Of a DNA stretch of 38,756 nt, positions 1,494 through 17,735 are shown piece by piece. Numbering within the stretch: position 1 is the stretch's first letter; every line of letters begins with the position of its first letter. The position numbers were made by a program, and so were the translations under genes. The stretch covers positions 98,613 through 137,368 of the forward strand of contig NZ_CACWPP010000001.1 of NCBI RefSeq assembly GCF_902762735.1, written 5' to 3'. Source of the DNA: an uncultured Ruminococcus sp. Lineage in GTDB: Bacteria; Bacillota; Clostridia; Oscillospirales; Ruminococcaceae. The notes beneath the pieces are model-generated. The model saw only the letters and a list, made by a program, of their open reading frames with translations. It was not told the origin of the DNA and made no database searches.

Positions 1494-1501
1494 ACGCAAA
1501 A

Positions 1502-1535
1502 CCCCCGCACTCAGCTGAGTACGGGGGCATTTTTT
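1502..1535. terminator. Bidirectional intrinsic terminator between the S41 protease gene and thiC
   Basis: A stem of CCCCCG pairing with CGGGGG around a CTCAGCTGAG-type inner palindrome is followed by TTTTTT on the plus strand. On the minus strand it is followed by a shorter T-run. It lies between two convergent genes and can end both transcripts. Confidence 0.85.
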
Positions 1536-1541
1536 GTACTG

Positions 1542-2855
1542 TTACTTTTCCGAGCAGAACTCTACGGTCTTGCCTTCGAGTATCATATTAGTGGTGCGAA
1601 CGGCGCACATCTTGCCGCACATCGAACATGTGTGTCTGTCAGCGGGCGGTGTGCTTTCAAAATACTCCCTTGCCTTTTCGGGGTCAAAAGCTATCTTGAA
1701 CATTTCCTCCCACTCGACCTTGTGCCTTGCTTCTGCCATAGCGTTGTCCTTGTCCCTTGCGTGAGGAACGCCCTTAGCTATGTCAGCGGCATGAGCGGCT
1801 ATCTTGCTGGCGATAATGCCCTCCTTAACATCGTTGACATCAGGCAGTCTTAGATGCTCTGCGGGTGTAACATAGCAGAGGAAATCCGCACCGCTGGAAG
1901 CCGCGATAGCACCGCCTATCGCAGTCGTGATGTGGTCGTAACCGGGAAAAATATCGGTAACAACAGGACCCAGCACGTAGAAAGGCGCATTGTGGCAGAT
2001 GCGCTTCTGCAAACGCATGTTTGCTTCTATCTCGTTCATAGCCATGTGACCGGGACCCTCGACCATTACCTGAACGTCTTTCTCCCAAGCCCTCTGTGTC
2101 AGGTGACCCAGTTCAATAAGTTCGGAGATCTGACCTGCATCGGTAGCATCATCTATACAGCCTGGACGCAGTGCATCGCCCAGACTGATAGTGCAGTCGA
2201 ACTCACGGAGTATCTCCAGCACTTCATCATAATGCTCGTAGAACGGGTTCTCGTTGCCTGTCATCATCATCCACGCAAAAAGCAGTGAGCCGCCGCGCGA
2301 AACTATGTTCATCTTTCTGCCCTCACGCATGAAAGCCTCAACAGCGCGTCTGTTTATACCTGCGTGAATGGTCATAAAGTCCACGCCCTCTTCTGCGTGT
2401 GCGCGTACAACTTTCAGGAAATCCTCAGCAGTTATCTCCAGCAGATCCTTCTCCAGATAGCCGATAGCATCGTACATCGGCACAGTGCCTATCATAGCGG
2501 GCGACTTAGCTATCAGTTCGCGCCTGAAAGTGTTGGTCTTACCGTAGTTTGAAAGATCCATGATCGCCTCAGCACCGAACTTGTGTGCCAGTTCGACTTT
2601 CTGCATTTCCTTTTCGTAGTCCTTAGCATCGCCCGATATGCCCAGATTTACGTTTATCTTGGTGCGCATCCTTGTGCCGATGCCCTCAGGGGAAATAGCC
2701 TTGTGGTTTATGTTGCAGGGTATAGCCACCTCGCCCTTAGCCACCAGTGCGCGGAGTTCTTCGGGGTCGATATACTCCTTTTCGGCTACGATCTTCATTT
2801 CGGGTGTTATGATGCCTTTCTTTGCGGCTTCCATCTGTGTTGCATATTCTCTCAT
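1542..2855 (-). CDS. thiC: Phosphomethylpyrimidine synthase ThiC
   Basis: Radical SAM enzyme that rearranges aminoimidazole ribotide to HMP-phosphate, the pyrimidine half of thiamine. The 437-aa product carries the family's unusual C-terminal cluster motif C410-x2-C413-x4-C418 (CSMCGKMC), and has the length typical of the short clostridial form without the extra N-terminal domain. The start is placed at the ATG at 2855, preceded by AAAGGA at good spacing. An in-frame ATG ten codons upstream lies inside thiD and lacks a ribosome site. It is the last gene of the thi operon, 1 bp after the thiD stop, and is followed by a strong terminator. Confidence 0.96.
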
Positions 2856-2856
2856 G

Positions 2857-3666
2857 TCAATTTTTCCTTTCTGCTGTAAATTCATTGTTTATCGCGAATG
2901 CGTGATCCATCGGTCCGCTGCCGTGCCCCAGATCGAGCATAGCCGCCAGCGCACCTGAGATATACCTCTTTGCTCTCTCAACAGCTTCGTCCAGCGCATA
3001 GCCCTTTGCAAGATTTGATACTATGGCACTTGAAAGCGTACAGCCTGTACCGTGAGTGTTGGGGTTGTCGATGCGTTTGCCCTCGAACCACTTTTTCACT
3101 CCCCTGCCCACCAGCAGGTCGTTGGCATCGTTGAGCTGATGACCGCCTTTTAAAAGCACGGCACAGCCGTACTCCGCGAATATCTGCTCTGCCGCTTTCT
3201 CCATATCATCAGCCGAACGTATCTCCAACCCCGCCAGCACTTCCGCTTCGGGAATGTTGGGCGTGATGACCTTAGCAAGGGGTATCAGCCTTTTTTTCAG
3301 CGTGTCGATAGCTTCCTCACTGATGAGCCTTGCCCCGCTGGTCGCCACCATAACAGGGTCAAGCACGATGTTCTTCGCCTTGTACTCTGTCAGCTTGTCG
3401 GCTATGGCTTCTATCAGCGCCGCCGATGATACCATGCCTATTTTTACAGCGTCGGGAAAAATATCCTCAAATACACGGTCGAGCTGTTCGGCAAGAAAAG
3501 CGGGAGTTACCTCCATTATCCCCGAAACGCCCGTCGTGTTCTGTGCAGTCAGGGCAGTAACGGCTGTCATGGCGAAAACGCCGTTTGCCGTCATTGTCTT
3601 GATGTCTGCCTGTATCCCGGCGCCTCCGCTGGAATCGCTTCCCGCGATGCTCAATGCTGTTCTCAT
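2857..3666 (-). CDS. thiD: Hydroxymethylpyrimidine/phosphomethylpyrimidine kinase ThiD
   Basis: Ribokinase-fold kinase that phosphorylates HMP and then HMP-P to HMP-PP for coupling to the thiazole. The product begins [17 protein letters not shown], the typical ThiD N-terminus, and contains [13 protein letters not shown] near the C-terminus, the anion-hole and catalytic Asp/Cys region of the family. The start at 3666 has GAGAGGAG about 8 bases upstream; nine further codons are open upstream but have no good ribosome site. thiC follows after 1 bp. A gap of 126 bp separates it from the tenI-thiE gene upstream; no clear hairpin or promoter was seen in that gap. Confidence 0.95.
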
Positions 3667-3792
3667 AGTATTACTCCTCTCGTTTACAAGCATTGGTTTT
3701 GTATAGCGACAGAAGGTGGTGCCCCCGATCTGCCGCTTGATTTATCCTGCGCAGAACGTTCCGCCGTCACGGCTGGTCATCTGCGCATTTTA

Positions 3793-5022
3793 TCAGACGA
3801 TCCCGCTTATGATCTCTTTCAGCTGAGCCGTCCTGCTTTCAATATCGTCAGCCCCGAACACCGCCGAGACCACTGCAAAGCCTTCTGCGCCCATGCCCGC
3901 AAGTGTGCCTATATTTTCAAGGCTTATGCCGCCGATGGCAACGCATGGTATGCTGACAGCGCCTGCTATCTCACTGAAAAGCGCCTTGCTGACAGGTATC
4001 GCATTTGTCTTTGTGGGCGACGGGAAAAGTGCCCCAACGCCTAAATAGTCAGCCCCTGCCGCCTGCGCGTTCTGCGCCTGCGCGACAGTCTTTGCAGTAG
4101 CCCCGATAATAAAGCCGCTGTCTGCTTTCGCCCTTATCTCGTCAACAGGTGCGTCCTCTATGCCCACGTGGACACCGTCTGCGCCCGCTTCTATGGCAGC
4201 CTGCCAGTCATCATTGACTATCAGCGGCGCACCGTACTTATGGCATACGGGCAGAAGTTCCCTTGCCTGCGCCACAAGCCCCTCATGGCCGCACTGCTTG
4301 TCCCTCAGCTGAATGATGTTCGCACCGCCTTTGAGCGCACTTTCCACACAGCTGACTATCCCCCGCTCTTTAACGAGTGCGGGGTCTGTAATGGCGTAAA
4401 GCCTCAGCTTATCGCCTGTTATCCTCATATTCATCACTTCCCTGAGTTTTTCTGTAAGCATGCGCGGTTCGCCCGACATGAAGCCGCTCATCACACACAC
4501 GCCGTCAGCGCCCGCGCGAATGACCTTCCCCGCATTTTCGGGCGAGATGCCGCCTATACCGTAGACAGGTATATCCACCGCTTCGCTGACTTTTCGCACA
4601 AAGTCAAGCCCGCGCCCCGCAAGACCTTTCTTGCAGTCGGTCTCAAAAACGTGACCTGCCGTCACATAACCTGCCCCCAGCGCCTGAGCTTCCAGCGCAT
4701 CTTCCGCCGAGTGACATGACGCGCCTATCAGCCTGAATTTCGACTTTGTGTCATCATCAAGCCCGCGCAGCACCCCCAGCGGCAGGTGTATGCAGTCCGC
4801 GCCAAGTTCCAGCGCCGCACCCACATAATTGTGAAGCACAACTTTCGTACTGCTTTCAGCGAACATCTCCATGACCCGCGCCGCCAGCTTTTTATACTCG
4901 TCCTCAGTCAGTTCTTTTGCCCGAAGCACCAGCATATCAGCGCCGCTCTCAGCTATCTTCTCAAGCTGTTTATCGGCGTTTTCGCAAAGTGTCAGCGCGG
5001 TGACACAGACTATCTTACACAT
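3793..5022 (-). CDS. thiE: TenI-ThiE fusion: TenI-like domain joined to thiamine phosphate synthase
   Basis: The 409-aa product is about twice the size of ThiE and contains two related TIM barrels. The C-terminal half (about 203-409) has the ThiE signatures RLYAITDP, IQLRDK, LIVNDD and FPSPTKTN and should couple HMP-PP to the thiazole phosphate. The N-terminal half (1 to about 195) has the same fold pattern (VLRAKEL, VVLHN, HLPLG, GHVFETDCKKGLAGRG), but with TenI-like residues. TenI is a thiazole tautomerase and regulator relative of ThiE. The start overlaps the end of thiH by 8 bp, so translation is probably coupled. An internal ATG at about 4428-4434, preceded by GGGAAGTG, sits exactly at the domain joint and could allow separate ThiE production. 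Confidence 0.9.
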   Translation of the reverse strand: MCKIVCVTALTLCENADKQLEKIAESGADMLVLRAKELTEDEYKKLAARVMEMFAESSTKVVLHNYVGAALELGADCIHLPLGVLRGLDDDTKSKFRLIGASCHSAEDALEAQALGAGYVTAGHVFETDCKKGLAGRGLDFVRKVSEAVDIPVYGIGGISPENAGKVIRAGADGVCVMSGFMSGEPRMLTEKLREVMNMRITGDKLRLYAITDPALVKERGIVSCVESALKGGANIIQLRDKQCGHEGLVAQARELLPVCHKYGAPLIVNDDWQAAIEAGADGVHVGIEDAPVDEIRAKADSGFIIGATAKTVAQAQNAQAAGADYLGVGALFPSPTKTNAIPVSKALFSEIAGAVSIPCVAIGGISLENIGTLAGMGAEGFAVVSAVFGADDIESRTAQLKEIISGIV

Positions 5023-6265
5023 ACAGATAATCGTTCAGCACAGGCTGAAGCCCCTCGTCCGACATATCCTTGTACATCGTTTCAAAACTGCGGGTGTCGG
5101 CTATCTCGAACTGCTCATCGCCCTCTTCGGCATTCTCCTTGCCTGTGTACTTGCTCTCATGGTCGCCGATACCTGTGGAAACGCCCGCAGAGATCTTAGT
5201 TGCGGCTATCTTAACTATGCCGTTGCGGAAACTCTTCGACTCTCTGGAAGATACTGTGATGCCTGCAAAAGGCAGGAAAAGTCTGTAAGCGCAAAGCACC
5301 TGACAGAGCTGTTTTTCACGAACGTCCAGCGGGTCTATCTTGTCGTTGTTGACTATCGGGCGCAGTCTGGGACATGACAGTGATATTTCAGCCTGCGGGT
5401 ACTTTCTTTGCAGATAGTACATGTGCAGTGCGGTGGCAAGTGCATCTTTCCTGAAATCTGAAAGTCCCAGCAGTGCCGAGCCTGCAACACCTCTCATGCC
5501 GCCCATGAGCGCCCTTTCCTGCGCCTCAAAGCGGTAAGGCCACACCCTCTTGTGACCTGCCAGATGCAGCGTTTCGTACTTGTCGCTGTCATAAGTCTCC
5601 TGAAAGACGGTGACATAGTCAACGCCGCATTCGTGGAGATAGCGGTAATCCTCAACATTGACGGGGTATATCTCAACGCCCACCATTCTGAAATACTTGC
5701 GTGCCAGCTTGCATGCTTCGCCGATGTACCTGACATCGCTCATCGCCTTGCTCTCACCTGTGAGTATAAGTATCTCTTCCATGCCGCTGTCAGCGATGAC
5801 TTTCATCTCATGCTCTATCTGCTCCATATTGAGCTTCATGCGGCGTATCTTATTATAGCAGTTGAAGCCGCAGTAAACGCAGTAATTCTCGCAGTAATTG
5901 GCAATATACAGCGGTGTGAACAGGTAGACCGTGTTGCCGAAATGCTTTCTTGTTTCAATCCTTGCACGTTCAGCCATCTGTTCAAGGAAAGGTTCAGCGG
6001 CGGGCGAAAGCAGTGCCTTGAACTCTTCAACGCCGATAGTTGCCTGCTGTAAGGCGCGTGAAACATCTTTTGCAGTGTAGGCAGAGGCATCATAGCTGTT
6101 AAAATGTGCCATGACTTTCTCGCGAATATCGCTCTTTATCTGCTCCTGACCTTCCATATACTGCATGTGGTCGGTGCGGCAGGAGGGGTCATTTTCCAGC
6201 TTGTGCTTGCGCCTCAGTGCTTCTTCCGAAAGCCCCTCAGAGTCGAAGATGTAATTGTTCTCCAT
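5015..6265 (-). CDS. thiH: 2-iminoacetate synthase ThiH (tyrosine lyase, radical SAM)
   Basis: Cleaves tyrosine to dehydroglycine and p-cresol, supplying the glycine-derived part of the thiazole under anaerobic conditions. The 416-aa product has the radical SAM motif C125-x3-C129-x2-C132 (CENYCVYC) and the ThiH/biotin-synthase-like C-terminal region (SCPRLRPI). ThiH in place of the oxygen-dependent ThiO fits a strict anaerobe. The gene lies 12 bp after thiG and overlaps the tenI-thiE gene at its 3' end. Confidence 0.95.
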   Translation of the reverse strand: MENNYIFDSEGLSEEALRRKHKLENDPSCRTDHMQYMEGQEQIKSDIREKVMAHFNSYDASAYTAKDVSRALQQATIGVEEFKALLSPAAEPFLEQMAERARIETRKHFGNTVYLFTPLYIANYCENYCVYCGFNCYNKIRRMKLNMEQIEHEMKVIADSGMEEILILTGESKAMSDVRYIGEACKLARKYFRMVGVEIYPVNVEDYRYLHECGVDYVTVFQETYDSDKYETLHLAGHKRVWPYRFEAQERALMGGMRGVAGSALLGLSDFRKDALATALHMYYLQRKYPQAEISLSCPRLRPIVNNDKIDPLDVREKQLCQVLCAYRLFLPFAGITVSSRESKSFRNGIVKIAATKISAGVSTGIGDHESKYTGKENAEEGDEQFEIADTRSFETMYKDMSDEGLQPVLNDYLYV

Positions 6266-6277
6266 GTCAGCGCCCCC

Positions 6278-7051
6278 TTAGTCCCTCAGGAAGCCCGTCA
6301 GCGTATCGGAGGGTGATGCGCCCCTGACAAGCACTCTGCCCAGACCCGAAAGGTAAGCCTGTCTGCCTGCTTCTATCGCCTTGCGGAAAGCGTCAGCCAT
6401 CATCGGCAGGTCGCCCGCAGTTGCAAGTGCGGTGTTGGACATTACAGCCGCCGCGCCCATCTCCATAGCTTCGCAAGCCTGCGATGGTCTGCCGATGCCT
6501 GCATCAACGATGATGGGCAGGTCTATCTCATCAATGAGTATCTGTATGAAATCCCTTGTGGCAAGACCCTTATTTGAGCCTATCGGCGATGCCAGCGGCA
6601 TTACCGAAGCCGCACCTGCGTTAACAAGGTCGCGGGCGGTATTGAGGTCGGGATACATGTAGGGCATTACCACAAAGCCCTCATTTGCCAGAATATCTGT
6701 CGCCTTTATAGTTTCAGCGTTATCGGGCAGGAGGTACTTTGTATCGCGCATTATCTCTATCTTTACGAAATTGCCGCAGCCAAGTTCACGGGCGAGCCTT
6801 GCTATACGCACAGCCTCTTCGGCATTTCTTGCACCCGAAGTATTCGGCAGAAGTGTGACACCTTCGGGTATATGGTCGAGTATGCTCTCGTGTTCTTTGG
6901 TGTTGGCGCGTCTGACTGCCAGCGTGATTATCTCAGCGCCTGCATTCTCGACAGCCGCTTTAATCAGTGAAAGCGAGTACTTGCCCGAACCGAGTATGAA
7001 TCTCGAATTGAACTCATGCCCGCCTATTATCAGCTTGTCATTGTTTTCCAT
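6278..7051 (-). CDS. thiG: Thiazole synthase ThiG
   Basis: Condenses deoxyxylulose phosphate, dehydroglycine and ThiS-thiocarboxylate sulfur into the thiazole phosphate. The 257-aa TIM-barrel protein starts [21 protein letters not shown], the standard ThiG opening. K97 in NFVKIEI corresponds to the Schiff-base lysine of the family. A ribosome site AAAGGA precedes the ATG. It follows thiF by 18 bp and precedes thiH by 12 bp. Confidence 0.96.
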
Positions 7052-7069
7052 ATTTATCTTATCCTTTCA

Positions 7070-7705
7070 TCAGGGCTTATATTCGCCCGCTATTATCCTT
7101 ATGACCATATTAGCTTGATGCGCCGCGCATACTGCCACCCTTGATGCGAACAGCGTGCCTGCTTCATTGACATCAGTGTGACCGTCGCCGCAGATATAGA
7201 AGCGCTCGGTTATTCGTTTTGTGCATATTTCGTTGGCACTGGAGATCCCTGCCATGCCCGAAGCGGCTACCATATACTTATCGGGAAAATTCTCCAGCAC
7301 GAAATTTACCAGCATAGCTTTCTGTTCTGCCTTGTCGAAGCATTCGCAGACTATATGGCAGCCTTTCAGAAGTTCAGCCATATTATCTTCGTTCAGCTTT
7401 ACCTCACGGGCAGTTATCTTGCAGTATGGCGCTATCCTGCCGAGTGTTTGGGCAAGTGCCGCCGCTTTCGGCTGACCCAGCTGGTCGGGGAAATACTGCT
7501 GGCGGTGGAGATTTGAAATATCCACTTTATCCATATCAAACAGCATCAATTCACCCACGCCCGCTCTCGCCAGATGCACAGATACATTAGAGCCCAAGCC
7601 GCCCAGTCCGCAGACTGCGACTTTGGTTTCAGACAGCTTATTTTGAAGCTCACTGCCGTGACGCGCCGCGAGCGCATCATACATATCCTCGCGCGAGGGT
7701 ATCAT
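7070..7705 (-). CDS. thiF: ThiF-family sulfur carrier protein adenylyltransferase
   Basis: E1-like enzyme that adenylates the C-terminal glycine of ThiS before sulfur transfer. The 211-aa product has the nucleotide-binding loop GLGGLGSN (33-40), the DMDKVDISNLHRQ region and the acidic metal-binding area of the MoeB/ThiF fold. It is shorter than E. coli ThiF and lacks a clear pair of C-terminal CxxC zinc motifs, which fits the short clostridial ThiF type. Its ATG follows the thiS stop codon directly, so the two are coupled. Confidence 0.92.
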   Translation of the reverse strand: MIPSREDMYDALAARHGSELQNKLSETKVAVCGLGGLGSNVSVHLARAGVGELMLFDMDKVDISNLHRQQYFPDQLGQPKAAALAQTLGRIAPYCKITAREVKLNEDNMAELLKGCHIVCECFDKAEQKAMLVNFVLENFPDKYMVAASGMAGISSANEICTKRITERFYICGDGHTDVNEAGTLFASRVAVCAAHQANMVIRIIAGEYKP

Positions 7706-7900
7706 CTAACCGCCCCCCACGAAGCTGACCACCTCTACACTGTCACCGTCTTTCAGCACAGTGCTGTCATACTGCGATTTCGGCACAATGTCCAGGTTCA
7801 GCTCAACAGCTACCCTTTTGGGATCGTAACCATTCTCAGCCAGCAGTTCACTGACAGTTTTTCCGTCCAGCGAAGTTTCGCTGCCGTTTACCTTTACCAT
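7706..7900 (-). CDS. thiS: Sulfur carrier protein ThiS
   Basis: A 64-aa ubiquitin-like protein that ends in Gly-Gly-Gly; the terminal Gly is the site of adenylation and thiocarboxylation. It starts MVKVNGSETSLDGKTVSELL, typical of ThiS, with a good GGAGG site 7 bases upstream of the ATG. It is the first gene of the thi operon, just downstream of the TPP riboswitch and its terminator. Confidence 0.95.
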   Translation of the reverse strand: MVKVNGSETSLDGKTVSELLAENGYDPKRVAVELNLDIVPKSQYDSTVLKDGDSVEVVSFVGGG

Positions 7901-7923
7901 TTCTTAACCTCCGATCAGCCAAC

Positions 7924-7956
7924 AAAAAGGGAGACTGCGCGCAAAAACAGTCTCCC
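7924..7956 (-). terminator. Intrinsic terminator of the TPP riboswitch
   Basis: On the minus strand GGGAGACTG pairs with CAGTCTCCC across a short loop and is followed by TTTTT, 24 bases before the thiS start. It is the expression platform of the riboswitch just upstream. Confidence 0.9.
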
Positions 7957-7974
7957 GGTATTTCGGTCTGCTAT

Positions 7975-8057
7975 GTCCCTACGTTGGCATTATCCAAATC
8001 AGGTTGCGGGTCGATAGCTCTCTCGCTATCCTCTCAGCCTGCCTACAAGCTCCCCGT
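7975..8057 (-). promoter_or_regulatory. TPP riboswitch (THI box) controlling the thiamine operon
   Basis: The minus strand reads GGGGAGC, then CTGAGAGG, ACCC and ACCTGATTTGGATAATGCCA followed by CGTAGGGA. These are the conserved THI-box blocks in the right order. Thiamine pyrophosphate binding is expected to favour the terminator at 7924-7956 and switch off the whole thi operon. Confidence 0.97.
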
Positions 8058-8076
8058 TTATCGAGTTTACCCTTGT

Positions 8077-8105
8077 ATTATATCACCCTTTCGCGCAAAT
8101 GTCAA
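8077..8105 (-). promoter_or_regulatory. Sigma-A promoter of the thiamine operon
   Basis: TTGACA (8105-8100) and TATAAT (8082-8077) on the minus strand are separated by exactly 17 bases, a perfect consensus match. It places the RNA start just upstream of the TPP aptamer. Confidence 0.92.
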
Positions 8106-8222
8106 GCACTTTTTCAAATTTTCGTGTATCTGCGATACACCTCAATGGCGGGAGTCATTTTTGGCGCATCTGCTAATACCGTGCAAAAATTTCTGCTGTC
8201 CGTTCAGATGTACTTAAAGCGC

Positions 8223-8251
8223 TTGAAATCAGAAAGATTTTGTGGTATAAT
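8223..8251 (+). promoter_or_regulatory. Strong promoter of the TerB/ATPase/helicase operon
   Basis: TTGAAA (8223-8228), a 17-base spacer and TATAAT (8246-8251), with a TGn extended -10 just before it. It diverges from the thi promoter about 120 bp away. The next gene starts at 8289, giving a leader of roughly 30 bases. Confidence 0.88.
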
Positions 8252-8288
8252 ATATATAAGTATATCTTCGATGCGGGAGGCGTTGTTT

Positions 8289-9803
8289 GTGAAGAATATT
8301 GATGACCTAATCGAGCTTATCATGGGCGACGGTGCTATGAAAGAACTCAGCAGCAAAGTCTACAAAGATGAACCTATCTTAAAACGGGCTTCCCAGCTGG
8401 TGCAGGACGTTATACCAAAGCAGGATACTCCCACAAAGCTGATGGAGATGCGCCGCATGGTCTACCTGCCCGAAGCACAGTGGAAATCGCGGGAATGGCT
8501 TTTTTACAAGCAGGGCAATTTCATGGCGGGATTTGAGGACGACTTTGACAGCTTTGTGCCGTTTGAAAAATACTATCCCACTTATGCTGACATGACACTC
8601 AGCCAGCAGCGCACTTTTTTCAGCTGGCGCACCCGCGTGCGGTGCGGCGAGTACCCCGACATAAGCCTGTCGTATATTTTCGTTTACTGCTATGAGATGA
8701 TAAACCTCATAGGCGTTGAGACACCGCTCGATGCATACAACAACATGAAGACCATTCTGGAAAAGTATGAGGAACGTCAGCCAAAGCTGAAAACAAACAT
8801 TGACAGATGGCTGTTCGATATGGTCATATATTACGATCTGGACTCATCTCTGCTGGAGGAGACTGACAGCGTCATTTTTGACAGCGCGCTTATAGTGATG
8901 AAAGCTCCCGCAGAACATACGGAAGAAGAGCTGTTTCGGGCGATAAACATGCTCAGCTCATATAACGCCGAAAGATCGTCTTTTTACAAGACCTGTCCCG
9001 AAGATTTTATGAAAGTCACAACAGGCACATATCTCGCGCTGGACGCTTACTATGCCGCAAACAGGCAGAACAGCCTGTTCAACAAGTTTTTCGGGAACAT
9101 GGCAGTCAGCACTTACACAATGTTCGCCATGTCGGTATTCTGCCACTACCGCTTTACCAGACACAACGTATATGATATTAACAGTGTGCGCGGATTTTCG
9201 CTGTCAAACGGCATCTGGTACTGCAGTGAGTATCTTGGCAAGCCGCACAGCAAAAAGCAGCTGGGCGATCTTCTCCGCGCCATAGACAGCATTATGAGAG
9301 AGCAGTGCGGCTTCAAAAAAGCCCTGAAATGCCCCGATATAACCAAACAGATGTACAAGGTGATAAATGAGCAGATAAAAATTCTGCAAGAGCGCAAAAA
9401 GCTGGAAGAAGCCGCAAAAGTCGAGATAGACCTCTCAAAGCTGGGAAGCATACGCCGTGCCGCCGCCATCACACGCGACAAGCTGATAGTGGAAGAAGAG
9501 ACTGATGATGAGCCGACAACTCAGCCTGAGCCGATCGTCACGGCAGAGGAGGAGCATGGTGATGCTGTGCAGAACAGCACTCCCCTGAATGACGGCGAAT
9601 ACGCTTTCATGCAGGCGCTTTTATACGGCGGCGACTGCCGCAAGGCGGCGCAGAAAGCGGGTTCTATGCCGTCGCTTTTGGCTGACAGCATAAATGAAAA
9701 GCTGTATGACGATTTCGCCGACACGGTACTGACATTTGACGGTGACACGCCTGTTGTCATAGAGGATTACGAAGAAGAACTGAAAGGAATGATACTTCCG
9801 TGA
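8289..9803 (+). CDS. TerB-N/TerB-C domain protein
   Basis: The start is taken as the GTG at 8289, with GGGAGG 8 bases upstream and a consensus promoter before that; the frame is open further upstream but runs back over the riboswitch. The 504-aa product has the TerB-N signature YPTYADMTLSQQR (about 96-108), followed by WRTRVR and DISLSYIFVY. A TerB-C type end begins at about 380 (IDLSKLGSIRR, ITRDKLI) and closes with FDGDTPVVIEDY (about 483-494). A charged low-complexity linker lies at about 400-430. In the family these domains surround TerB in predicted stress or DNA-processing assemblies; here no classic central TerB domain is obvious. The 3' end overlaps the ATPase start as GTGA. It probably serves as scaffold or adaptor for the downstream ATPase and helicase; that role is inference. 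Confidence 0.85.
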   Translation: MKNIDDLIELIMGDGAMKELSSKVYKDEPILKRASQLVQDVIPKQDTPTKLMEMRRMVYLPEAQWKSREWLFYKQGNFMAGFEDDFDSFVPFEKYYPTYADMTLSQQRTFFSWRTRVRCGEYPDISLSYIFVYCYEMINLIGVETPLDAYNNMKTILEKYEERQPKLKTNIDRWLFDMVIYYDLDSSLLEETDSVIFDSALIVMKAPAEHTEEELFRAINMLSSYNAERSSFYKTCPEDFMKVTTGTYLALDAYYAANRQNSLFNKFFGNMAVSTYTMFAMSVFCHYRFTRHNVYDINSVRGFSLSNGIWYCSEYLGKPHSKKQLGDLLRAIDSIMREQCGFKKALKCPDITKQMYKVINEQIKILQERKKLEEAAKVEIDLSKLGSIRRAAAITRDKLIVEEETDDEPTTQPEPIVTAEEEHGDAVQNSTPLNDGEYAFMQALLYGGDCRKAAQKAGSMPSLLADSINEKLYDDFADTVLTFDGDTPVVIEDYEEELKGMILP

Positions 9804-11116
9804 AGATACCAAAGAGGATAGCTTCGGCTGTGATAAATTCACTGAAAGGCGGCGTTGTGCCGAGAATAGGTCTGCCGTATATAACAGTGGGCAGAGAAGT
9901 CGAGATAGATGCGCTTCTGCACGATGTTGACATAATCGAGGACGGCGGTGCGTCTTTCAGGTTTATCGTGGGCAAATACGGCAGCGGCAAGAGTTTTCTT
10001 TTGCAGACCATCAGAAGTCATGTGATGGACAGGAACTTCGTGGTGGTAGATGCCGACCTTTCGCCCGAACGCCGCTTGCAGGGCACAAAGGGTCAGGGAC
10101 TTGCGACCTACAAGGAACTTATACGCAACATGTCCACCAAAACACGCCCCGACGGCGGTGCGCTGACGCTCATACTCGACCGCTGGATAAGCGGCGTGCA
10201 GGCAGAAGCGGCGGCTGACAGCGGACTCGAACCGACTTCGCCCGAATTTGCGGCAGAAGTGGAGAAGAAGATATATCAGGTCATAAACGCACTGAATGAG
10301 ATGGTACACGGTTTTGACTTTGCAAGACTGCTGACCATCTACTACCGCGCGGCTGTTTCGGGTGATGACGAACAGAAAGCAAAAGTCGTCAAGTGGTTCA
10401 GGGGCGAATACGTCAACAAGACAGAAGCTAAGGGCGAACTGGGTGTAAACATCATCATCACAGACGATGACTGGTATGAGTACATCAAGCTGTTTGCCAT
10501 GTTCCTGAAAATGGCGGGGTACAGCGGTCTGCTGGTGCTGGTGGACGAACTGGTGAACATCTACAAGATACCCAACGCCATCACCAGACAGTACAACTAT
10601 GAAAAGATACTTACGATGTACAACGACACTTTGCAGGGAAAAGCGAAGTATCTCGGCATAATAATGGGCGGCACTCCGCAGTGCATTGAGGACACAAGAC
10701 GGGGCGTATACAGCTATGAAGCACTGCGCTCGCGCCTTGCTGAGGGGCGCTTCGGGCGCGAGGGCATACGGGATATGCTCGCACCTGTGATACACCTTGT
10801 CCCGCTGACTTATGAGGAGATGCTGGTGCTGACCGAAAAGCTGGCTGACATACACGCACAGCTTTTCGGCTATGAACAGCGCATAACGCAGGAAGATATG
10901 ATAGTGTTCATCAAGACCGAATTCGGGCGGATAGGTGCTGACAGCCACATCACGCCCCGTGAGGTGATACGCGATTTCATCGAGCTTCTCGACATAGCAT
11001 TCCAGAACCCCGAGATAAACATTTCGGACACCATAACTTCGGGCGGCTTTGAATATTCAAAGCCTGCGGCGGAGGAAGAAACTGCGGGCGGCGACTTTGC
11101 CGAATTTGACATATGA
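9800..11116 (+). CDS. DUF2791-family (BrxD-like) P-loop ATPase
   Basis: The 438-aa product has a Walker A GKYGSGKS at 58-65 and a Walker B LLVLVDE at 244-250, plus a sensor-like IIMGGTP region. The RIASAVINSLKGGVVP opening and the overall plan match DUF2791 ATP-binding proteins, called BrxD in type 2 BREX loci. Start is the GTG at 9800, overlapping the terB-like stop, with AAAGGA upstream. Its own stop overlaps the next ATG as ATGA. In BREX, BrxD partners the helicase BrxHI; here it is likewise with an Lhr-like helicase, but no BREX methylase, PglZ or BrxC gene is present in this window. The biochemical role is unknown. Confidence 0.85.
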   Translation: MKIPKRIASAVINSLKGGVVPRIGLPYITVGREVEIDALLHDVDIIEDGGASFRFIVGKYGSGKSFLLQTIRSHVMDRNFVVVDADLSPERRLQGTKGQGLATYKELIRNMSTKTRPDGGALTLILDRWISGVQAEAAADSGLEPTSPEFAAEVEKKIYQVINALNEMVHGFDFARLLTIYYRAAVSGDDEQKAKVVKWFRGEYVNKTEAKGELGVNIIITDDDWYEYIKLFAMFLKMAGYSGLLVLVDELVNIYKIPNAITRQYNYEKILTMYNDTLQGKAKYLGIIMGGTPQCIEDTRRGVYSYEALRSRLAEGRFGREGIRDMLAPVIHLVPLTYEEMLVLTEKLADIHAQLFGYEQRITQEDMIVFIKTEFGRIGADSHITPREVIRDFIELLDIAFQNPEINISDTITSGGFEYSKPAAEEETAGGDFAEFDI

Positions 11117-11604
11117 ATAATGAGAGAGTAATAATTATAGGATGTCCCGGATCGGGAAAAAGCACGTTTGCAAGAAGATACGCGGTACTGACAGGGCTGA
11201 CGCTGTTCCACCTTGACCTTATCTACCACCGCCCCGACCGCACAACTGTTTCGCGGGAGGTCTTCGACCACAGGCTGGAAACTGTCTTGTGTACAAAAAG
11301 TTGGATAATAGACGGCAACTATCAGCGCACTATGGAAATGCGCATGAAAAAATGCGATAAGGTGTTCCTGTTTGACCTGCCAACAGAAGTCTGTCTGGCG
11401 GGCGCTAAGGAACGGCTGGGCACGCCGCGCCCCGATATGCCCTGGTTCGAGGAAAAACTTGACCCCGAGTTCGAGAACACGATAAAAGAATTCCGCGGAA
11501 AAAATCTGCCGAAGATATATGAACTGCTTGAAAAGTACAGTGATAAAGATGTTACGGTGTTCAGGTCGCGCAAAGAGGCTGATGAGTATTTATTCGGGCT
11601 TTAA
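11113..11604 (+). CDS. Small P-loop kinase-like protein (adenylate kinase/FlaR type)
   Basis: The 163-aa product opens with VIIIGCPGSGKST (Walker A about 10-17) and contains HLDLIYHRP and WIIDGNYQRT. These fit the 'AAA ATPase/FlaR topology modulation' family of adenylate-kinase-like proteins. Such proteins are predicted nucleotide or small-molecule kinases; the substrate is unknown. The ATG overlaps the stop of the ATPase gene, so it is translated from the same operon. It ends 72 bp before the helicase. It may be a passenger, since this family is common as a stand-alone gene; whether it belongs to the core system should be judged from related loci. Confidence 0.8.
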   Translation: MNNERVIIIGCPGSGKSTFARRYAVLTGLTLFHLDLIYHRPDRTTVSREVFDHRLETVLCTKSWIIDGNYQRTMEMRMKKCDKVFLFDLPTEVCLAGAKERLGTPRPDMPWFEEKLDPEFENTIKEFRGKNLPKIYELLEKYSDKDVTVFRSRKEADEYLFGL

Positions 11605-11676
11605 GCTGACGGCACAGGCAGAAGGGACTTCCGTGCAGGAAGAACAAAATACAGCTTTTAAAGGAAAGGGCAGAAA

Positions 11677-13917
11677 ATGAACGTTTTTGACCGCTACGCA
11701 CCATTCGTGCAGGACTTTATATACCGAAACAACTGGGAAAGCCTGCGTGCCATACAAGCGGCGGCAGGCGATGTGATATTCAACACCGATGACAATCTTC
11801 TGCTGACGGCATCTACGGCATCAGGCAAAACGGAAGCGGCGTTTTTCCCGATACTTACGCTGTTTTCTGAGGACATGCCGCGCTCGGTGGGGGCTATTTA
11901 CATCGGTCCGCTGAAAGCGCTGATAAACGACCAGTTCACCCGCCTTAACGACCTCTGCGAAGATGCGGGGATACCTGTGTGGCACTGGCACGGCGATGTG
12001 GCGCAGTCGCACAAGGCGCGCATGCTGAAAAAGCCGTCGGGGATATTGCAGATAACTCCCGAATCACTGGAAGCCATGCTGATGCGCAAGCACGCCGCCA
12101 TAGCAAAGCTGTTCGGCGACCTGCGGTTCATCGTGATAGATGAGGTGCATTCGCTGATGAGGGGCGACAGAGGCGGACAGACACTTTGCATAATAGAACG
12201 GCTTTGCAGACAGGCAGGGGTCAATCCCCGAAGGATAGGGCTTTCTGCCACGATAGGCGACCCCGAAGCGGCGGGAGAATTTCTGGGCGCGGGCAGCGGC
12301 AGGCGGACTGCGATACCTAAAATAGAAGCCAAAGGCGCACGCTGGCGGCTCTCGATGGAGCATTTCTATGTCAGCGATGTGCAGGCAGCGTCCAATAAAA
12401 AGGACATAAAAGCACTTCCCGAACTTGAAAAAGCCACCGACAAAGCACCTCAGCATGCCGATCCGGGCATCGGATATGTCTTTGAACACACGCGGGGGAA
12501 GAAGTGTCTGGTTTTTGTAAATTCGCGCGAGGAGTGCGAAGCAGTCACCACCACGCTGAGGTCTTACTGTGAAGCAAATCACGAGCGGGACAGGTTTCTG
12601 ATACATCACGGAAATCTGTCCGCATCATACCGTGAAACTGCCGAAGCCGCCATGAAAGATGATGACGTGCAGATGACCACTGTTACCACCGCTACCCTTG
12701 AACTCGGCATAGACATCGGCAGGCTGGAACGGGCTTTTCAGATAGATGCGCCTTTTACGGTATCATCATTTTTGCAGAGAATGGGGCGAACAGGCAGACG
12801 CGATCTGCCGCCTGAGATGTGGTTCGTGATGCGTGAGGATATGCCCGAACCGCGAACGATGCTGCCATCGACAGTCCCGTGGAAATTATTGCAGGGCATA
12901 GCGCTTGTGCAGGTATATCTGGAAGAAAGGTGGGTCGAACCGCCGAGATTTGACCGCCTGCCGTTCAGCCTGCTGTATCATCAGACCATGTCAACACTGG
13001 CTTCCTGCGGCGAACTGACACCCGCACAGCTGGCACAGCGGGTGCTTACGCTGAAATATTTCCACCGCATAACCGCCGACGACTACAAGATACTCCTGCG
13101 CCACCTGATGGAGAAAGAACACATACAGCGCACCGAAGAGGGCGGGCTGATAGTGGGTCTGGCTGGGGAACGGCTGGTGAACAACTTCAAATTCTACGCT
13201 GTTTTTCAGGAGAACGAGGAGTACACGGTCAGGTGCGAGTCACAGGAGTTGGGCACGCTGGTGATGCCGCCGCCCGTTGGTGAAAAAATAGCCATCGCGG
13301 GTCAGGTATGGATAGTCACTGAGCTTGACCACAAGCGTCATCTGGTATACTGCGAACCCGTCAAAGGCAAAGTCCCTGCGTATTTCGGGGACTGTCCCGG
13401 AGATATAAACACAAAGATATTACAGCGCATGAAACAGGTGCTGTGCGAGGACAAGAGTTATCCATACCTTATGAAGAACGCAGTGGCAAGGCTTGAACAG
13501 GCGCGTATCTCAGCAAGAAATTCGGGAGTCACCACCGATAATCTGATAAATCTTGGGGGCGACATGTGGGCGCTTTTCCCGTGGGTGGGGACTTATGCGT
13601 TTTTTGCGCTGGAGAGATTTCTGAATGTGCGGTGCAGAGAAAAGGTGAAGATGCGCGGACTGGATTCCTGCCGACCTTATTTTATCCAGTTCACGATGAA
13701 AGCCACCAAAGAAGAATTCTTCCGCACACTGAGGGAGGAAGCGAACAAGCCCATCGACCCGATGGAACTGGTCTACCCGAAAGAGATACCGATATTTGAG
13801 AAATATGACGAGCATCTGCCTGCCGAACTGGTGCGCAAGGGCTTTGCCTACGGCGTGCTTGACATTGACGGCATGCTGACGGCAGTCAACAGCTGGTGCG
13901 GCAAAGAGGGCTTCTGA
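11677..13917 (+). CDS. Lhr/BrxHI-like DEAD/DEAH superfamily 2 helicase
   Basis: The 746-aa product carries motif I TASTASGKT (44-52), motif II DEVH (155-158), motif III SAT (190-192), and a second RecA domain with TATLELGIDIG and motif VI QRMGRTGRR (367-375). The layout continues with a long C-terminal part as in Lhr-type helicases. It is about half the length of full Lhr and close to BrxHI size, so it is expected to be a DNA (possibly RNA:DNA) translocase. AAAGGAAAGGG precedes the ATG. It is the last gene of the operon and is followed by a terminator. Pairing with a BrxD-like ATPase recalls the brxD-brxHI pair of type 2 BREX. Confidence 0.9.
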   Translation: MNVFDRYAPFVQDFIYRNNWESLRAIQAAAGDVIFNTDDNLLLTASTASGKTEAAFFPILTLFSEDMPRSVGAIYIGPLKALINDQFTRLNDLCEDAGIPVWHWHGDVAQSHKARMLKKPSGILQITPESLEAMLMRKHAAIAKLFGDLRFIVIDEVHSLMRGDRGGQTLCIIERLCRQAGVNPRRIGLSATIGDPEAAGEFLGAGSGRRTAIPKIEAKGARWRLSMEHFYVSDVQAASNKKDIKALPELEKATDKAPQHADPGIGYVFEHTRGKKCLVFVNSREECEAVTTTLRSYCEANHERDRFLIHHGNLSASYRETAEAAMKDDDVQMTTVTTATLELGIDIGRLERAFQIDAPFTVSSFLQRMGRTGRRDLPPEMWFVMREDMPEPRTMLPSTVPWKLLQGIALVQVYLEERWVEPPRFDRLPFSLLYHQTMSTLASCGELTPAQLAQRVLTLKYFHRITADDYKILLRHLMEKEHIQRTEEGGLIVGLAGERLVNNFKFYAVFQENEEYTVRCESQELGTLVMPPPVGEKIAIAGQVWIVTELDHKRHLVYCEPVKGKVPAYFGDCPGDINTKILQRMKQVLCEDKSYPYLMKNAVARLEQARISARNSGVTTDNLINLGGDMWALFPWVGTYAFFALERFLNVRCREKVKMRGLDSCRPYFIQFTMKATKEEFFRTLREEANKPIDPMELVYPKEIPIFEKYDEHLPAELVRKGFAYGVLDIDGMLTAVNSWCGKEGF

Positions 13918-13920
13918 CAC

Positions 13921-13962
13921 AAAAAGCGCACACGGAGAATTTTCCGTGTGCGCTTGAATTTT
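13921..13962. terminator. Bidirectional terminator between helicase and sufB-like genes
   Basis: A 12-bp perfect stem (AGCGCACACGGA with TCCGTGTGCGCT) is flanked by A-rich sequence on the left and T-rich sequence on the right. It can terminate both convergent transcripts. Confidence 0.88.
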
Positions 13963-13965
13963 TGC

Positions 13966-14892
13966 TTATTTAAGGAAACCGTTGATTATCTGCTCTTCCG
14001 CCTCTGCTTCGGTAAGACCGAGAGTCATCAGCTTGATGAGCTGATCGCCTGCTATCTTGCCGATAGCCGCTTCGTGTACCAGTGCCGCATCAACGCTGTT
14101 GGCTTCCAGCGATGGCACTGCCAGTATCCTGCCGCTGTCCATGATGATAGAGTCACATTCGGTGTGACCGCTGCATGCCGCGTTGCCCTTAACGCAGAGG
14201 TCGAGTTTCTGGTAGGAATTATCCCTTGCCACCGAGCGTGAAACTACATCGGCGCTTGAACCGTCACCATTCAGCGAAACGTTGTAGGTGCTGAGCGCCT
14301 GCTGTTCGCCGTGTGTCATCAGTCTTTCGCGGACATTCAGCTTTGCGCCCGCCTTCAGCTCGGCTATGGTCTTTCTGTCGGTGTTGTCAACGCCCTTTAT
14401 CTGCACCATTTCCATGTCAACGACGCTGTTCTCTTCCTGATATACCTCAGTGACAGGGTTCAGCACCCTCTTGCCTGTGCCATTACCCGAACCGTAGTGC
14501 TTCTCAACATATCTCACCTTTGAATTCTTGCCTACGAAGAACCTGTGGATACCGTCATGTTCAGAATCCTGATTGCCGCAGTTGTCGATGCCGCAGCCCG
14601 CAACTATCAGCACATCGCAGTTCTCACCGACATAGAAATCATTGTATACGGTCTCTTTCAGACCGCTCTCACTCAGCACAACGGGAATGTGTACGCTCTC
14701 GTTTTTAGTGCCGTCTTTTATCTTTATGTCGATACCGCTCTTGTCGGTCTTGCCGATTATCTCAATATTGGCAGTGGAATTCCTGCCCACCGACTCACCG
14801 TTGGCGCGGAGATTGTATGCGCCTTCGGGAATATCGTGAAGTTCTGCAACTTCCTGTAAAAGCTGTTTCTGTACAGCGTCCATCTTCAACAT
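13966..14892 (-). CDS. Short SufB/SufD-type Fe-S assembly scaffold
   Basis: Member of the SufBD family, which builds Fe-S clusters together with the ATPase SufC. The roughly 308-aa product is much shorter than SufB or SufD of enterobacteria (about 420-495 aa) and has the beta-helix-like core with CGIDNCGNQDSEHDGIHRFF and the C-terminal ALVHEAAIGKIAGDQLIKLM region typical of the family. The ATG at 14892 has GGAGG at 8-base spacing and is preferred over the ATG two codons earlier, which lies only 2 bases from it. It follows sufC directly. The pair corresponds to the minimal SufBC type found in methanogens and many clostridia, probably acting as a SufB2C2 unit. Confidence 0.9.
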   Translation of the reverse strand: MLKMDAVQKQLLQEVAELHDIPEGAYNLRANGESVGRNSTANIEIIGKTDKSGIDIKIKDGTKNESVHIPVVLSESGLKETVYNDFYVGENCDVLIVAGCGIDNCGNQDSEHDGIHRFFVGKNSKVRYVEKHYGSGNGTGKRVLNPVTEVYQEENSVVDMEMVQIKGVDNTDRKTIAELKAGAKLNVRERLMTHGEQQALSTYNVSLNGDGSSADVVSRSVARDNSYQKLDLCVKGNAACSGHTECDSIIMDSGRILAVPSLEANSVDAALVHEAAIGKIAGDQLIKLMTLGLTEAEAEEQIINGFLK

Positions 14893-14905
14893 CTCCATCG
14901 CCTCC

Positions 14906-15637
14906 TTAATCTTCTATCTTCGGACAAATAGTCTGTGCATAGTTACTGCTCATTATCTCGGGCAGTATATCTGCCGCAGGACCCTGTTTTATCAGCTGAC
15001 CGTCTGACAGCACGATTATCTCGTCTGCTATTTTCAGCAGTCTTTCCTGATGGGAGATGACTACCACTGTCCTGCTCTGCTCTGCCTTGCGCATATTTTC
15101 AAAAATGCGTATCAGGTTATTGAAGCTCCACAGGTCGATGCCTGCTTCGGGTTCATCGAAAACAGCCAGCTTGACATCTCTTGCCATGACGGTAGCTATC
15201 TCTATCCTCTTCAGCTCACCGCCCGACAGCGAAGCGTTGACCTCGCGCCTGATGTAATCTTTGGCGCACAGACCTACTTCCGACAGATAAGTGCAGGCAT
15301 CTGAAACTGACAGATTTTTGCCTGCGGCTATCCTCAGCAAGTCAAGCACTGTCAGCCCCTTGAACCTTACGGGCTGCTGAAAAGCAAAGCCGATGCCTGC
15401 TCTCGCCCTTTCGGTTATGCTCATATCGGTTATATCGGTGCCGTTGAATATCAGCCTGCCGTCAGTGGGCTTGATTATGCCCGCGATTATCTTTGCAAGG
15501 GTGGATTTTCCGCCGCCGTTCGGTCCCGTTATAACTATAAATTTATCATCGGGGATCTCCAGACTTATCCCGCGGATTATGTCGGAAGCCTTTCCGCTGT
15601 CATCCGCGCTGAAAGTGATGTTTTTAAGCTCCAGCAT
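14906..15637 (-). CDS. sufC: SufC Fe-S cluster assembly ATPase
   Basis: ABC-type cytoplasmic ATPase that partners SufB-like scaffolds. The 243-aa product has Walker A GPNGGGKST, signature LSGGELKRIEIA, and Walker B LAVFDEPEAGID with the SufC-type glycine-isoleucine-aspartate ending. A ribosome site AAAGGA lies upstream of the ATG. It is the first gene of a two-gene operon; sufS, sufU and sufE are absent here. Confidence 0.92.
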   Translation of the reverse strand: MLELKNITFSADDSGKASDIIRGISLEIPDDKFIVITGPNGGGKSTLAKIIAGIIKPTDGRLIFNGTDITDMSITERARAGIGFAFQQPVRFKGLTVLDLLRIAAGKNLSVSDACTYLSEVGLCAKDYIRREVNASLSGGELKRIEIATVMARDVKLAVFDEPEAGIDLWSFNNLIRIFENMRKAEQSRTVVVISHQERLLKIADEIIVLSDGQLIKQGPAADILPEIMSSNYAQTICPKIED

Positions 15638-16058: not shown

Positions 16059-17735
16059 ATGATAGAAGATATAGTTGTTGCTTTCAGGTATTTTATCAAT
16101 GTTATGAACAATGCAGAAGATGCTCTCGACCCCAACGTGGTGCGTGAAGCTGTCAGCAATATTTGCAGGCTCTCTGATGTGGCAAAGCTCGTTGTTACTT
16201 ATTATGAGCATGTTCAGCTGGAAGGTTCAGACAACAGGATAAGATACGACCTGTACGAAGATACGGACAGTGACGGTGAAGTTATCGTTGACCGCAGGAT
16301 GACTGACGGCAACGGTCTGGTGATATATGAGTTTTTCCATGCGGCGGGTACTGCACGCTGGTCTGAAAGGATACGTGACAGGCTGAACCTGATGATCTCC
16401 ATACTTTTTATGTTCAACAGCCGCCAGATGTTAAAGCAAGTCGCGAACCGCTTTGCATATATAGACGAAGCGGGCTACCACAATCTGCGCTATTTCAATG
16501 CACAGGTGAACAGGCTGGGGACGGAGAACGACCTTCACGGCAAGGTGGTGGCACACTTCAACCTGCGGCACTTTCAGGCTGTCAACAACCAGATAGGCAG
16601 AAAAAACGGCGACATCGTGATGCGCGGTTTTGTTGACGGCATTGAAGAACTTACAGGCAGTGATATACCCGTCTGCCGCATCGGCGGTGACAATTTCATC
16701 ACTATATTCACAGCCGACAAAACTGATGCGGTGGTCGATTTTCTTGGAAATGCGGTCGTTAGTTTTGGCGATGACTACGGCGAGAGCATAATGCTGAGCG
16801 CAACTGCGGGCATATTCGTCATACCCGACGACTACATATACACCAACATGAATGACCTTCTTGACAAGGTAATGCCCACCTCATTTATAGCCAAAAGCGC
16901 GGGGCGTGAGGACATCATGTTTTACAGCCCCGAACTTATCAATGCAAAAAAGCAGACTGCATGGGTACAGCATCTTTTCCCCGAAGCACTTAAAAACGAT
17001 GAATTTCTTGTTTACTATCAGCCCAAAGTCGATGTAAACAAGCGCAGGCTGGCAGGTGCTGAGGCATTGTGCAGGTGGAAGCATGACGGCAGACTGATAC
17101 CGCCAAATGATTTCATACCGATACTTGAACAGAACACAGACATCTGCAAACTGGATTTCTATATGATAGACCACGTCTGCCGCGATATACGGCAGTGGCT
17201 CGATGAGGGCAGACAGCTGCCGCGCATCTCTGTCAACCTTTCGCGCAAGCACATGCTTGATATTGACCTGGTGGAACATCTGATGGAAATAATAAACAGG
17301 CATAATGTTCCGCACGAGCTGATAGAGGTCGAACTGACTGAGACCACCACTGACGTTGAGTTCAAAGACCTGAAACGTGTTGTCAGGGATCTGCAAAAGG
17401 AGAATATCTCTGCATCGGTGGACGATTTCGGAAGCGGATATTCGTCGCTGAACCTCATAAAGGAAGTCCCCTGGAACGTTATCAAGATAGACAAGAGCAT
17501 CGTGCCGATAGATGAGGACGATGAATCAAGCGCAAGAACGGTCATGTTCAAATATGTGGTCGCGATGGCGCGTGAGATGGGGCTTGAATGTATCGCAGAG
17601 GGTGTTGAGACCGAAACTCAGGTCGAGGTGCTGAGGCGCTACGGCTGTGCCCTTGCACAGGGTTATTTCTTTGACAAAGCCCTGCCTAAAGACGAGTTTG
17701 AAAAACGTCTTGACGGCATCGGCATACGCGAATAA
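16059..17735 (+). CDS. Cyclic-di-GMP phosphodiesterase with degenerate GGDEF and intact EAL domain
   Basis: The 558-aa cytoplasmic protein has an N-terminal region of about 140 residues without recognised domain, then a GGDEF-like domain (about 150-290) and an EAL domain (about 305-555). The GGDEF signature is replaced by GGDNF (209-213), so cyclase activity is doubtful; it may bind GTP as a regulatory domain. The EAL catalytic set looks complete: E335 of EAL, N393 (SVNLSRK), E425/E428, DDFGSG (455-460), K476, and E514/E517 (AEGVE). It should hydrolyse cyclic di-GMP to pGpG. GGGGGTAGT precedes the ATG. Single-gene unit with its own terminator. Confidence 0.92.
   Translation: MIEDIVVAFRYFINVMNNAEDALDPNVVREAVSNICRLSDVAKLVVTYYEHVQLEGSDNRIRYDLYEDTDSDGEVIVDRRMTDGNGLVIYEFFHAAGTARWSERIRDRLNLMISILFMFNSRQMLKQVANRFAYIDEAGYHNLRYFNAQVNRLGTENDLHGKVVAHFNLRHFQAVNNQIGRKNGDIVMRGFVDGIEELTGSDIPVCRIGGDNFITIFTADKTDAVVDFLGNAVVSFGDDYGESIMLSATAGIFVIPDDYIYTNMNDLLDKVMPTSFIAKSAGREDIMFYSPELINAKKQTAWVQHLFPEALKNDEFLVYYQPKVDVNKRRLAGAEALCRWKHDGRLIPPNDFIPILEQNTDICKLDFYMIDHVCRDIRQWLDEGRQLPRISVNLSRKHMLDIDLVEHLMEIINRHNVPHELIEVELTETTTDVEFKDLKRVVRDLQKENISASVDDFGSGYSSLNLIKEVPWNVIKIDKSIVPIDEDDESSARTVMFKYVVAMAREMGLECIAEGVETETQVEVLRRYGCALAQGYFFDKALPKDEFEKRLDGIGIRE

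Follow-up and report, generated by a model that had tools for sequence, protein, structure and literature searches.

The four genes at 8223-13962 of the window (the whole 38,756-nucleotide stretch of Ruminococcus DNA analyzed here) encode a TerB-domain protein, an ATPase, a small kinase-like protein, and a helicase, and a sequence-only reading had put them forward as a candidate undescribed defense or DNA-processing system. Is this combination new, and if not, what is it and what might its parts do? Judging from profile matches and gene order, the operon is almost certainly a Shango system, composed of SngA, SngB, and SngC, and very probably a Shango anti-phage system with one passenger kinase gene. 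It is of an already described kind, the novelty being a member from the Ruminococcus albus group that carries a passenger gene. The candidate is settled as Shango and kept from being counted as new.

Layout of the operon

The operon is present at 8223-13962 with a promoter-like site, four genes at the positions read earlier, and a terminator. The promoter-like site (8223..8251, plus strand; TTGAAA-17-TATAAT, TG extended) is defined by its consensus match only; what had been called one strong promoter does match the consensus at 11/12, but the region holds 6 such sites and shuffled versions of it average 5.4, so that the site alone is not above chance. The sngA gene (8289..9803, plus strand) encodes a protein of 504 amino acids with TerB_N and TerB_C domains when counted from a GTG at 8289. 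This GTG is probably the start, with a GGGAGG ahead of it at 8275-8280 and the corresponding GTG opening the reading frame of a relative (L019); an alternative ATG lies at 8271. There follow, all on the plus strand, sngB (9800..11116), encoding a BrxC/BrxD-family (DUF2791) ATPase of 438 amino acids; the kinase-like gene (11113..11604), encoding a small P-loop protein of 163 amino acids and read here as a passenger; and sngC (11677..13917), encoding an SF2 helicase of the Lhr/BrxHI-like kind of 746 amino acids. Overlaps had been said to join all four genes. Two junctions are indeed of this type, the stop codon of sngA overlapping the GTG of sngB in GTGA (9800-9803) and that of sngB overlapping the ATG of the kinase gene in ATGA (11113-11116), whereas the kinase gene and sngC are separated by a 72-nt gap (11605-11676). 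The single terminator corresponds to a hairpin of 14 pairs with a T-rich tail at 13924..13955 (plus strand), for which the other strand matched too.

The three large proteins are those of Shango

The best PADLOC match of each large protein is a Shango model, with most of the profile covered in every case: 1.7e-73 for SngA, 3.1e-192 (637.5 bits) for SngB, and 3.3e-278 (923.3 bits) for SngC. The same models match all three proteins encoded by a yardstick operon from an E. coli plasmid. Pfam places TerB_N (1.5e-30) and TerB_C (1.2e-22) in SngA, BrxC_BrxD (5.7e-171) in SngB, and DEAD (1.2e-26) and Helicase_C (2.7e-17) in SngC. The ATPase motif residues of SngB are intact at 58-65 and at D249 E250, which we take to be Walker A and Walker B, as are the helicase motif residues of SngC at 48-52, 155-158 (DEVH), 190-192 (SAT), and 367-375 (QRMGRTGRR), presumably motifs I, II, III, and VI, respectively.

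A TerB-domain protein, an ATPase, and a DEAD/DEAH helicase are encoded together here, and it is by these three genes that Shango is defined in the available text of PMC10250203. As far as that text goes, the Shango of Pseudomonas aeruginosa PA14 shifted phage plating 10-100-fold for many phages, not all; Shango protected P. aeruginosa PAO1 against many, not all, of the phages tested; and E. coli independently yielded the system as well (PMC10250203; the E. coli paper is reportedly that of Millman et al. 2022). Excerpts of two other papers list Shango among the systems detected in a rumen survey (PMC13356809) and group SngC with BrxHI, DruE, and DpdJ in a helicase tree (PMC12278908). A literature search over titles and abstract openings, with subscription journals mostly outside its coverage, returned no mechanistic study of Shango. 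The view that the system is undescribed has to be abandoned, since Shango had been named and phage-tested before, according to the same partial source (PMC10250203), and its PADLOC models are the best for all three proteins. The broader part of that view, a defense-type ATPase-helicase operon related to BrxD/BrxHI and including a TerB-domain protein, is upheld.

The E. coli SngA (769 amino acids) has a middle TerB domain, PF05099, which the accessible part of PMC10952713 lists for Shango and for which Pfam gave no match in the Ruminococcus SngA (504 amino acids). Among seven further SngA proteins scanned, three have a match above or near the cut-off of 24.4 bits (E. coli, 31.8; Sulfitobacter, 37.0; a haloarchaeon, 21.1 and thus below it), and no match was obtained in the four from Bacillota, including Paenibacillus (L101) and Sinanaerobacter (L093). 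PF05099 is probably not a defining domain of Shango.

Distribution and gene order

A scan of genome contigs with SngB yielded 265 confirmed relatives. Among the best 80 of these 265, sngA was found in 79 loci and sngC in 75, gaps being counted irrespective of contig ends; sngA lies ahead of sngB on the same strand in all 79 loci with both genes, and sngC lies behind sngB, again on the same strand, in 73 of the 75 with both, the exceptions being L025 (A-C-B) and L094 (sngC reversed). The A-B-C order is also that of 14/17 loci fetched from plasmid and E. coli collections, and 13 of the 16 on plasmids, three of the 13 haloarchaeal, show it with nothing annotated between the genes. The order recurs in Clostridia, Escherichia, Paenibacillus, alphaproteobacteria, and haloarchaea; the co-occurrence proposed as a check on the operon is thus found far beyond close relatives, Archaea included.

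Various genes lie beside sngC on plasmids. In two of the three haloarchaeal loci (L102:9736-13305 and L106:8236-10275, not L107), sngC is followed by a metallophosphoesterase gene and an SMC-family gene. On Sulfitobacter and Paracoccus plasmids (L112:7988-10194 and L114:7988-10194), a gene annotated as PD-(D/E)XK nuclease family lies directly 3' of sngC, that of L112 with a Pfam match.

Within the genus, SngB is found in 9/29 genomes; the others are in part incomplete, so that the 20 absences are not all certain. The same nine genomes give a strong SngC match; at E 0.001, SngC matches extend to 21/29 genomes, the weaker ones being other helicases by score. At the level of the phylum, SngB occurs in 16/299 genomes at E 1e-60, the window genome counted. 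An SngB-like protein is encoded on 691 of 72,556 plasmid records, always at <60% identity and in some cases perhaps as BrxD, and no SngB match was obtained in 50,697 phage records.

An accessory operon beside thi and suf genes

To the left of the operon, a TPP riboswitch (7959-8066, minus strand; Rfam RF00059, 59.2 bits) lies ahead of a thi operon that is transcribed divergently from the Shango genes; to the right, a gene with a SufB/D core (sufB-like) faces it. The nearest named relatives include R. albus, and the SngB and SngC of R. albus 8 (L016) are 99.8% and 98.9% identical to those of the window. In the R. albus group, L016-L021 have thi genes upstream and, except for L017, where the contig ends, sufB downstream; L022 adjoins sufB, not thi. 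The site is empty in another genome of the genus (G015), where thiG and sufB are 1135 bases apart, versus 6915 in the window, and the interval contains thiF and part of the riboswitch stretch and no sng gene. When loci are linked by at least two shared flanking genes, the best 80 of 265 loci plus the window form 45 groups, the two largest with 12 members each, short contigs inflating the number of single-locus groups. At the edges of the cassette, the search for short repeats gave only two 9-base matches, one direct and one inverted, which we treated as chance. The operon is accessory and patchy, not a fixed core locus.

It is very improbable that the genes form a resident DNA-repair or stress operon and not a defense system. 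The operon does adjoin thi genes in six of the seven R. albus-group loci, and purifying selection on both SngB and SngC is strong (dN/dS, 0.006-0.062 in the R. albus-group pairs computed), as such residence would have it. Against this stand its apparent lack in 20/29 genus genomes, the empty site in G015, the differing flanks elsewhere, the complete operons on plasmids (13/16 plasmid loci fetched), and the phage protection published for a relative (PMC10250203, in the text available).

Residence in a defense island, another proposed check, gave no support to the Shango assignment. The neighbors of Shango loci match 13 PADLOC families, each in one of the 78 proteins scanned (of 155 listed) and compared only with 30 window proteins. 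Those 30 proteins themselves match 24 families, of which 22 are E1-E2 models, presumably all representing the ThiF protein. Since the neighbor matches are not clearly above those of the window's own genes, no defense island is shown.

A probable passenger gene at the sngB-sngC junction

The kinase-like protein is similar to the PRK08118 "DNA topology modulation protein" model but scores below its cut-off (123.8 versus 215 bits). The gene had been read as a fixed part of the operon, a view that does not survive comparison within the genus: among the nine Shango genomes, five have it intact, two have a remnant, a fragment carrying in-frame stops, and in the other two it was not found. It is present in six of the best 80 of 265 loci, in one of them as a fragment. 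Related genes (40-58% identity) lie elsewhere in four genus genomes without Shango, and the sngB-sngC junction of other loci is occupied by ArsC-like, dockerin, and CAAX protease genes. The kinase gene looks like a passenger. All this makes it very improbable that the kinase does a job, such as regulation, in a four-gene variant of the system, even though the ATGA overlap couples its gene to sngB and though the gene also lies between sngB and sngC in L056, where SngB is only 84% identical. Being a remnant or not found in 4/9 Shango genomes and having relatives in genomes without Shango, the kinase is rejected as a core part.

Several lineages have unrelated genes at the sngB-sngC junction; an ArsC-family gene, for instance, is located there in L076 (4989-5336) and L081 (11283-11672).

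SngA varies far more than SngB and SngC

In the 63 of 81 loci (the best 80 of 265 plus the window) that have full-length A, B, and C, mean identity over 1953 pairs is 42% for SngA, 81% for SngB, and 80% for SngC; the loci were chosen by SngB, which favors SngB in this comparison and not SngC, and SngA is below SngC in all 1953 pairs. A second set of 18 loci spans several phyla and consists of 14 of the 17 fetched from plasmid and E. coli collections, together with 4 others; here the identity of SngA is lower than that of SngC in 152/153 pairs and lower than that of SngB in 153/153. Left out of this set were L110 (sngA apparently interrupted), L115, which lacks annotation, and L103, whose sngC lies beyond the stretch. 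In L110 (1-4483), on a Mesorhizobium plasmid, it is an IS256-family transposase gene that apparently interrupts sngA.

Pairwise rates were computed on seven R. albus-group loci, a set without L017, whose sngC runs off the contig. The dN/dS of SngA is 0.06-0.16, far below 1, in every computable pair, so that positive selection on the whole gene is not shown. Compared with R. albus 8, most of positions 1-15500 of the window is 95-98% identical at the nucleotide level, except for 8251-9500, where identity drops to 71-82%; dS is 0.84 for sngA, versus 0.18 for sngB and 0.12 for sngC. Because dS itself is raised, this points to import of a divergent stretch and not to fast protein change alone. The tract also covers thiS (dS, 0.69) and thiF (dS, 0.36), a GGDEF-EAL gene near sufC (16059-17735) has a dS of 0.92 with 78% amino acid identity, several genes right of 20 kb have a dS of 0.5-0.7, and sngA ranks second among the 34 genes with a computed dS; the divergence is thus not specific to sngA. 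The EAL gene constitutes a second divergent tract, of higher dS than sngA.

SngA might be an exchangeable recognition part, its alleles exchanged through recombination while the SngB-SngC motor stays fixed, a proposal that we regard as speculative and somewhat doubtful. Weak constraint combined with ordinary patchwork recombination would also fit the variability of SngA. Were the exchange of SngA true, SngA would set the phage or DNA feature that is attacked. It is the rapid change of SngA that merits an experiment.

A proposed mechanism for Shango

Our working model is that SngA would sense phage or other foreign DNA, or recruit SngB and SngC to it, and would pass the DNA on to these two, a BrxD-like ATPase and an SF2 helicase, respectively, which together would make up a nearly invariant motor pair. 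This pair would translocate on or remodel the DNA and, by doing so, block replication of the phage or foreign DNA. That SngB and SngC act on nucleic acid is likely; the role of SngA as the recognizer is put forward tentatively, at somewhat less than even chances. Pfam detects no nuclease domain in SngA, SngB, or SngC, the matches of SngC being all of helicase type and some of them common to Cas3 and type III restriction enzymes; the block would then occur otherwise than by cutting, or the cutting would fall to a host nuclease or an unseen domain.

Sequence searches found no solved relative of SngA or SngB. The structure predicted for SngA is good (pLDDT, 86.4), yet a PDB comparison gave nothing at or below E 0.001. 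Its best matches, all weak (best E, 0.31), are mostly LysR-type winged-helix DNA-binding domains of which ~70 residues are covered and which, by our reading, align with a C-terminal H-H-H-E-E-H of the model. Such a likeness would suit a DNA-contacting SngA and proves nothing. The predicted structure of SngB is poor (pLDDT, 63.0), and its matches were set aside.

Comparison with known systems

BREX type 2 contains homologs of the SngB ATPase and the SngC helicase, namely BrxD and BrxHI, and these are the second-best PADLOC models here (3.9e-46 for SngB and 2e-129 for SngC) at far lower scores, which explains the earlier impression of BREX. That the operon is a minimal or degenerate BREX type 2 remnant, its core replaced by the TerB protein, is nonetheless highly improbable and was rejected, since the Shango models score far higher (637.5 versus 156.1 bits for SngB and 923.3 versus 430.9 bits for SngC), SngB falls under the NCBIfam BrxD cut-off (157.2 versus 350 bits), and no BREX family is matched by the 30 other window proteins (PADLOC, 1e-10). 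The same three-gene set moreover recurs in two domains of life. The usual BREX genes were rightly described as missing, at least within the window, where PglZ, BrxC/PglY, and PglX have no PADLOC match among the 34 proteins scanned.

Lhr and ligase-associated DEXH helicases share the SF2 core with SngC, which matches NCBIfam TIGR04121 at 4.1e-57, far under the cut-off (193.5 versus 850 bits), and PDB chain 5v9x_A, presumably an Lhr, at 4e-26. The role proposed for SngA may be likened to that of the specificity subunits of type I restriction systems. The closest likeness is to Shango itself, which has the same three proteins as the Ruminococcus operon, in the same order and with the same domain types and HMM scores, the differences being the kinase gene that here sits between sngB and sngC and a short SngA for which Pfam gives no TerB match in the middle.
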